64,000 nt of DNA, from contig NZ_KN046818.1 in NCBI RefSeq assembly GCF_000742135.1, positions 248,001-312,000 of the forward strand, given 5' to 3'. This document shows, piece after piece, positions 1 through 2,169 of this stretch. The translations under genes were made by a program, and so were the position numbers. Origin of the DNA: Klebsiella pneumoniae (GTDB taxonomy: Bacteria > Pseudomonadota > Gammaproteobacteria > Enterobacterales > Enterobacteriaceae). Each line of letters opens with the position of its first letter. Position 1 is the first letter of the stretch. Below the pieces are notes generated by a model. It was not told the origin of the DNA and searched no databases. It was given only the letters and a program-made list of their open reading frames with translations.

Positions 1-385
1 CGTCGCGCAGCAGGCTCTTTTTCTTGCGCTCAATATTGTCGAGGCGATATTGCGCATCTTCATCATAAAATTCGGTCAGCGGCAGGGTGACCACAATTTC
101 AACATCCTGCGGTTCCAGACCGCTGGTCAGCAGCGCATGATGGACAGCGATGGAGTTCAACGGGCTATATTGCCAGTCAATGTTATTGGTTGGGAGCGCA
201 TCGGGAGTGATCAGGTCGAATGAGTACTTTTCATCATCCACCGTGTAGTTAAAAGGCTTCCCCGAACCGAAGGTGGCAGACCAGCCGCGTTTAAAACTGT
301 TGGGGCTGATATGGGTGAAAGTTTCGCCATCTTGCTCCCACAGCATTTTGATATTGGTTGAACCATCATCGATAAAAATGCGCAT
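1..385 (-). CDS. ParM/StbA-like actin-family plasmid segregation protein (N-terminal part, runs off window)
   Basis: The minus strand from 385 reads [14 protein letters not shown] and continues open to the window edge for about 128 codons. It matches the N-terminus of ParM (StbA) of plasmid R1: the phosphate-1 loop [10 protein letters not shown], then [19 protein letters not shown] and TLPLTEFYD. ParM polymerises with ATP into filaments that push apart DNA bound by ParR. GGAG lies seven bases before the ATG at 385; an ATG at 390 is out of frame. Upstream is a repeat array resembling the parC centromere. A parR gene would be expected beyond the left edge and cannot be seen. Finding this gene beside melB in a chromosomal context is unusual. 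Family assignment is firm; function on the chromosome is inference. Confidence 0.85.
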
Positions 386-470: not shown

Positions 471-620
471 GAAAAAGAGACAATTCTGAGTTTTATTTGA
501 GAACAATCGGAGAAACAAACAGTCCAGAACGCTCAAAAAGAGAAATAATTGAGATAAAATAGAGAACTACAGTTTTCTCTTTCTGTCTTTTTAAGACACT
601 GTTTTTTGCTCAAAAAGAGA
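471..620. repeat. 11-bp-periodic GAGA iteron array upstream of parM, candidate parC-like centromere
   Basis: GAGA (GAGT at 488) begins at 477, 488, 499 and 510, and again at 540, 551, 562 and 617. Steps within each block are exactly 11 bp, and 562 to 617 is 55 bp (5 x 11). A 13-mer GCTCAAAAAGAGA occurs twice, at 531-543 and 608-620, 77 bp (7 x 11) apart. Plasmid R1 parC is built of 11-bp ParR-binding repeats in two blocks around the parM promoter, so layout and position agree. No other gene fills 386-660. The periodicity is seen directly; the centromere role is inference. Confidence 0.6.

Positions 621-660: not shown

Positions 661-2169
<1,509 letters not shown>

Follow-up and report, generated by a model that had tools for sequence, protein, structure and literature searches.

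The locus described here is, as read from its sequence, a ParMRC partition system maintained on the chromosome of Klebsiella pneumoniae and not a relic, and its predicted ParR rather probably marks three chromosomal sites for ParM action in segregation or positioning. The window, the whole 64-kb stretch of DNA that was analysed, comprises bases 248,001-312,000 of the main contig C1, which measures 5.28 Mb out of a genome of 5.5 Mb and carries dnaA and a dif-like site. Judged by its genes, the parC-parM-parR operon is a complete type II (ParMRC) partition system; it sits on this 5.28-Mb dnaA contig and not in the location usual for such systems, a low-copy plasmid. The sequence bears out the earlier note's picture of a parC-like array before a chromosomal parM with melB adjoining.

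The 5' part of parM occupies window positions 1-385 on the minus strand, with the start codon at 385; another 572 bases lie left of the window, and the whole gene as called from its ORF (C1:247429-248385) encodes 318 amino acids. Its product matches the Pfam families StbA_N (5.2e-65) and ParM C-terminal (5e-55), a sequence comparison with the PDB matches it to R1 ParM (4a62/1mwk, about 1e-106), and the nucleotide-pocket motifs expected of an actin-like ParM are intact. A parR-like gene, anticipated by the earlier note, is indeed present behind parM: the reading frame at C1:247048-247419, left of the window, starts 9 nt after the parM stop and encodes a 123-aa protein with matches to Plasmid_stab_B (1.5e-15) and, by sequence, to the PDB structure of pB171 StbB/ParR (2jd3, 1.9e-9). 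ParR of type II systems is a ribbon-helix-helix protein, a fold that the product of this gene may have. An AlphaFold2 model of the Raoultella orthologue reached a mean pLDDT of 46.7, too low for use. The annotated neighbours of the operon are metabolic and chaperone genes; on the right, outside the system, lies melB (661-2076, minus strand), which is annotated as such in K. pneumoniae NZ_CP129856. In the gap between cbpM and parR, left of the window (L004:6700-7060), a repeat of the GTAGGCCGGGTA... type occurs two to three times, and in genome G013 the same gap contains a transposase-like ORF.

Read on the minus (parM-coding) strand, each unit of the parC array consists of TCTC, in some cases ACTC, with seven free bases after it. 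On the plus strand GAGA stands at 477, 499, 510, 540, 551, 562 and 617, as the earlier note listed, and also at 403 and 414, which it missed; its further GAGA at 488 is in fact GAGT, with the GAG in phase. Three groups of sites, all on the minus strand, make up the array: a near pair of TCTC 11 bp apart at 403-417, closest to parM and with TCTC at both sites in 6/6 genomes; block 1 at 477-513, TCTC-TCTC-ACTC-TCTC in 11-bp phase (the 4-unit match C1:248477-248513, covered by the invariance test below); and block 2 at 540-565, three TCTC in 11-bp phase (the 3-unit match C1:248540-248565), kept in 6/6 genomes. The proposed 11-bp spacing holds within 477/488/499/510 and within 540/551/562, with a step of 30 bp between the blocks; 617 stands 55 bp from 562. 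The 13-mer GCTCAAAAAGAGA recurs at 531 and 608, exactly 77 bp apart as had been noticed; inspection of the six-genome alignment by eye shows that it is not conserved as a repeat in other species. Its second copy, together with the isolated TCTC at 617, forms an element at 608-620 (minus strand) that is probably peripheral to the array, the TCTC at 617 being present in 5/6 genomes and missing in the most distant. The span of 471-620 first assigned to the array had a real array in it but slightly wrong limits: the conserved sites cover 403-565 of the window, all before parM.

Four GAGA pairs and six GAG pairs occur at lag 11, and either value was reached at lags 4-24 in 0/2000 dinucleotide shuffles. 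In the distal block, 25/28 TCTC columns are invariant across the six genomes vs 14/61 other columns (p 3e-9; here and below, Fisher tests on alignment columns take the columns as independent and ignore relatedness), and sliding the frame 5 bases either way lowers the invariant columns from 20/21 to 9/21, with the maximum at shift 0. The 11-bp phase, on whose persistence in relatives the earlier note had placed weight, is kept in all 6 parM-bearing genomes among 20 of the genus, with single sites altered (ACTC for TCTC at 540 in G002, TATC at 510 in G015). At least two in-phase direct repeats are thus found upstream of parM, as in ParMRC systems generally. A scan for sigma-70 promoters across the array found none.

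A ParM at least 92% identical is encoded in 6/20 Klebsiella-genus genomes (parMR+ in what follows), the remaining parM matches there being 36-49% identical, and 14/20 members lack the system (parMR-); each species is represented in the sample by a single genome, with strains 176 and 2020S07-151 of K. pneumoniae in addition. Nucleotide identity of parM, parR, melB and cbpA to these two strains is 98.8-100%, which places the genome analysed in K. pneumoniae. Outside the genus, the best ParM match among 295 genomes drawn from the family is 72%. The operon adjoins cbpAM in five parMR+ genomes; in the sixth, G013, it stands behind a transposase gene. In the parMR- genomes, the gene next to cbpM, assigned by eye from ORFs, is melB in one (G006), melA-like in nine and proP-like in three, that of G011 being ambiguous and in none of these groups. 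Five of the six parMR+ genomes form one clade in a cbpA-cbpM tree and G015 falls among parMR- genomes, so either the operon is old and was lost several times, or it was acquired by G015; the first is favoured because dS between the K. pneumoniae genome and G015 is 1.01 for parM, 1.02 for cbpM and 1.17 for cbpA. Vertical descent fits as well, since parM dS is close to that of its neighbours cbpM and melB; cbpA dS in G001 and G002 exceeds that of the neighbours.

Selection on the operon is strongly purifying. Relative to K. pneumoniae, parM dN/dS is 0.000 in G019, 0.015 in G013, 0.023 in G001, 0.049 in G002 and 0.045 in G015, and parR gives 0.04-0.11 over five pairs; the corresponding ranges are 0.015-0.055 for cbpA (five genomes) and 0.025-0.034 for melB (the three genomes having it). 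The system is accordingly chromosomal, conserved within its lineage and under purifying selection, as is characteristic of cParMR. This contradicts the relic of plasmid integration entertained in the earlier note, which dN/dS and conservation of the phase led us to reject. A decaying relic of an integrated phage-plasmid in particular would agree with the closest non-Klebsiella relatives being D6-type phage-plasmids (about 78%), but it is hardly credible in view of the metabolic and chaperone neighbours, the intact ORFs, the near-zero dN/dS over species divergence and the kept phase.

Arrays of the same motif are conserved at three places of the chromosome, two of them remote from the operon and not foreseen in the earlier note; as ParR sites they are predicted by motif. 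When the whole K. pneumoniae genome was searched for runs of three TCTC spaced 11 bp apart, four matches turned up, distributed over the parC array and two other loci, C1:70449 and C1:348504; the reversed control had none. Over 416 kb of this chromosome, of which about 408 kb are distinct, period-11 arrays of four units scoring at least 14/16 are confined to the three loci, the same search at periods 9, 10, 12 and 13 giving 1, 0, 0 and 0 arrays. Four units with at most one mismatch yielded 19 matches in 20 genomes, 18 of them in parMR+ genomes (6/6) and one in a parMR- genome (G018, 1/14), and the reversed control 2 matches in 20 genomes. Arrays outside parC were found by this 4-unit search in 5/6 parMR+ vs 1/14 parMR- genomes (Fisher p about 0.002, relatedness ignored; a single clade supplies five of the parMR+ genomes, so the co-occurrence counts lack independence). 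The looser 3-unit search matched in 12/20 genomes, namely the six parMR+ and six parMR- (6/14), where the matches comprise that in G018, one further single match (G016 C2:106675) and GATCTC repeats in five genomes. These repeats, at 11-bp steps, occur in G004, G005, G008, G014 and G016 and also on contig C2 of G013; three of the sites were inspected (G013:C2, G005 and G004), two lying no more than about 220 bases from a contig end and one on a 15-kb contig, and parM gave no match on the inspected contigs. All six GATCTC repeat sites were set aside as unrelated and probably plasmid-borne. L170, L171 and L172 are GATCTC 11-bp repeats on other Klebsiella contigs, unrelated to parM; a likeness to plasmid origins is a guess. 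G018, which gave no parM match, has its 4-unit TCTC array (C4:143900-143936, L173, minus strand) in what looks like intergenic DNA, and this orphan may be a leftover of a lost system.

The three arrays of the K. pneumoniae genome share one replichore, at 358, 536 and 636 kb from dnaA, the two remote ones being 178 kb (near a tRNA-Leu gene) and 100 kb (in a lyase gene) from the operon on the same arm. The distance from the tRNA-Leu array to parM is 178-237 kb in seven sequences and that from parM to the lyase-gene array 77-100 kb in four. All three are also found in K. pneumoniae strains 176 and 2020S07-151, and in NZ_CP129856, a 550-kb linear record, their order differs.

The tRNA-Leu array precedes the gene for tRNA-Leu(CAA), presumably leuX, by about 230 bp and stands between it and a carbonic anhydrase gene, in a C-rich, variable intergenic region that is 87-90% identical between our genome and the two further K. 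pneumoniae strains. Our genome, G013, G019 and both of those strains, 176 and 2020S07-151, have it with four units. G002 also has four, two mismatches included, while G015 has three and G001 two TCTC in phase. Across the six 4-unit sequences, with G015 and G001 left out, 15/16 motif columns are invariant vs 6/21 spacer columns (p 7e-5). In G002 the 80 kb examined hold no carbonic anhydrase gene beside tRNA-Leu, and the array is still there. In G013 (L099:5739-5921) the carbonic anhydrase gene matches only in two end pieces, the array being intact.

The other remote array lies inside a gene annotated as L-serine ammonia-lyase alpha, which we take to be cyuA/yhaM-like, between psiE and pgi, and is present in the lyase gene of our genome, G001 and strains 176 and 2020S07-151. 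In three sequences 16/16 motif columns are invariant vs 10/21 spacer columns (p 4e-4). The parMR- genomes G008 and G010, the only ones with a close lyase orthologue (84 and 83%), encode LSHLTAISIHSR as TCC CAC CTG ... TCC CGC, out of phase, whereas the parMR+ lyase genes encode a near-identical peptide as TCT CAT CTC ... TCT CGT, in phase; in the first unit Ser also stands in place of Ala, and random synonymous recoding yields a 4-unit array in 27/200,000 cases. In G002 the lyase gene is a remnant in which four TCTC remain intact and 11/21 spacer bases differ from ours. Neither lyase gene nor array was found in G013, G019 and G015, and because it is absent there the array is dispensable.

Could the remote arrays be chance pyrimidine-rich sequence or another protein's sites, with parMRC itself real and maintained? 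The C-rich and variable tRNA-Leu region, the weak array of G001 (its 3-unit score reached in 13/1000 shuffles), the orphan array in a parMR- genome and the two reversed-control matches in 20 genomes would suit such an origin. It is nevertheless very unlikely: among the eight tRNA-Leu regions, dinucleotide shuffles attained the 4-unit score 1, 1 and 3 times per 1000 for G002, G015 and G001 and 0 times per 1000 for the other five, and the motif letters are kept while the spacers drift, to which the codon evidence, retention past gene loss and the association with parMR must be added. A second reading makes ParR a repressor with parC as its own operator and the remote arrays as operators or silencers of tRNA-Leu, carbonic anhydrase and the lyase. 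ParR of ParMRC systems autorepresses from parC, and the tRNA-Leu array of our genome lies upstream of the tRNA gene, yet we regard this as quite unlikely: the lyase array lies within coding sequence and outlives loss of the gene, the tRNA-Leu array in G002 has likewise outlived the carbonic anhydrase gene, and ParM would not be needed. An operator role toward the neighbouring genes is weakened because the arrays are retained after those genes are lost.

The nearest relatives of the system outside Klebsiella are D6-type phage-plasmids, with ParM 78% identical in phage D6 and 78.6% in a 90.8-kb Enterobacter hormaechei plasmid that has capsid and tail genes; Providencia and Proteus plasmids follow with about 72%. 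In E. coli, 964/5426 genomes match part of the operon region at 60-80% DNA identity, and 1003/1010 of the places are on plasmids. D6, Enterobacter, Yokenella, Providencia and Proteus have phased sites shortly before parM with 11 or 12 of 12 letters over three units, and phased TCTC precedes parM in 4/5 relatives with 53-55% ParM identity, in one of them in opposite orientation; the upstream search for phased sites gave no match in L021, L026 (49%) and L051 (47%). In Yokenella regensburgei NZ_JMPS01000015.1 (L050, 4395-7328) a 72% parMR with array stands, by eye, directly behind an integrase-like gene and is possibly an integrated element; the matching genome G170 has two full-length and two partial parM matches. 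Candidatus Arsenophonus triatominarum has six contigs with ParM relatives of 44-48% (L051-L056), an unusual number. We considered the remote arrays as cargo of an integrated phage-plasmid and rejected this, both halves of the D6 genome having no 4-unit array of at least 14/16 away from parC and the lyase-gene array consisting of metabolic-gene codons.

Incompatibility against cognate phage-plasmids, a possibility that the earlier note had raised beside a role in chromosome organisation, is the main rival to a segregation role: chromosomal parMRC and its extra arrays would mis-pair with plasmids or phage-plasmids of the same parC and block their stable inheritance, the extra arrays adding dose. 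None of 185 plasmid records with a ParM 60-80% identical is from Klebsiella, despite the genus supplying 2704 of the best 5000 records with any related ParM (a plasmid search that may leave out records very near our genome), and there are precedents in the covered parts of PMC9426499, where ParR-parC specificity sets incompatibility in Clostridium perfringens and R1 parC is cited as expressing it. The absence from Klebsiella is explained equally by the host range of D6-type phages and by sampling; moreover, incompatibility needs parC, leaves purifying selection of housekeeping strength on parM unexplained, and predicts no preference for one arm. We therefore hold it to be unlikely. The two Klebsiella records with at least 99% ParM identity in the plasmid-collection search carry the chromosomal locus. 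CP125156.1, at 5.37 Mb a chromosome by size, is a K. pneumoniae entry filed among plasmids, and NZ_CP129856.1 is a linear 'plasmid' bearing chromosomal genes together with parMRC and the two remote arrays. The resident 96-kb plasmid was considered as a partner for cross-talk and dismissed, its ParM being 46% identical and the 345 bases upstream lacking a TCTC phase (best 9/16).

The preferred reading, action of ParM on the chromosome through ParR-marked sites, could proceed as follows. A D6-related ParMRC operon would have settled beside cbpAM on the chromosome of a Klebsiella ancestor and then been kept by selection. ParR would cover all three arrays, a binding that we infer because the remote arrays agree in motif and period with the one beside the parR operon. 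According to the part of PMC9426499 covered, at least two 11-bp repeats are required for R1 ParR to bind, so three or four units could suffice. A moderately strong guess, less certain than the binding, is that arrays coated with ParR might cap ParM filaments on sister chromosomes, and the origin-side region about 0.36-0.64 Mb from dnaA might then be pushed apart, paired or positioned during segregation. Together, the complete operon and the matching remote arrays suggest that a plasmid system has been taken over to act on the Klebsiella chromosome itself. A fuller version is put forward tentatively: a domesticated phage-plasmid ParMRC may provide actin-based chromosome segregation or positioning, with ParR on three arrays of one arm, two of which may have evolved in place, one of these out of metabolic-gene codons; the bacteria concerned are reported to have no dedicated chromosomal ParABS. 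That report, in the sections of PMC12270681 covered, concerns chromosomal ParABS in enterics generally and not Klebsiella specifically. Pairing, incompatibility or regulation would be equally possible mechanisms.

Chromosomal ParM is already known: cParM of Desulfitobacterium and Clostridium was described in 2025 as ParM and ParR encoded on the chromosome and conserved in the lineage, with a function beyond plasmids proposed and, in one case, with ParR binding a cparC adjacent to the operon (PMC12270681, sections covered). The Klebsiella system is alike in its chromosomal ParM and ParR conserved within a lineage; it differs in being enteric, the Figure 1 list of that paper, among the parts covered, consisting of Firmicutes and a Burkholderia entry. 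Klebsiella, Enterobacter and Escherichia have 0 occurrences in its main text, and the sections covered mention no remote parC arrays, and enterics only as lacking ParABS. Open-access PMC full text, to which the search was confined, yielded no paper that seems to describe this Klebsiella locus; the remote arrays and the enteric host are what was not found in the searched literature. K. pneumoniae is an enteric of clinical importance, is genetically tractable, and combines a conserved chromosomal ParMRC with predicted extra arrays at exact places, which makes a chromosomal role of ParMRC directly testable, and the locus may bear on which phage-plasmids the species can keep.

Among known systems, StbA/StbB of D6 is the most similar, sharing the 78% identical ParM, a similar C-terminal tail of ParR and an upstream 11-bp TCTC array; D6 is a phage-plasmid, unlike the chromosomal system of Klebsiella. 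Compared with ParMRC of plasmid R1, that of Klebsiella is chromosomal, vertically inherited and accompanied by further far-off arrays, and its parC groups are uneven, with seven or more sites far from parM and two near, R1 parC presumably having a 5+5 layout. Chromosomal ParABS uses one adaptor protein and several 16-bp parS sites on the origin side. The Klebsiella system would resemble it in working, with one predicted adaptor and several origin-side sites, and no homology is claimed: ParA is not an actin-type ParM, and a 16-bp parS is not a phased array.
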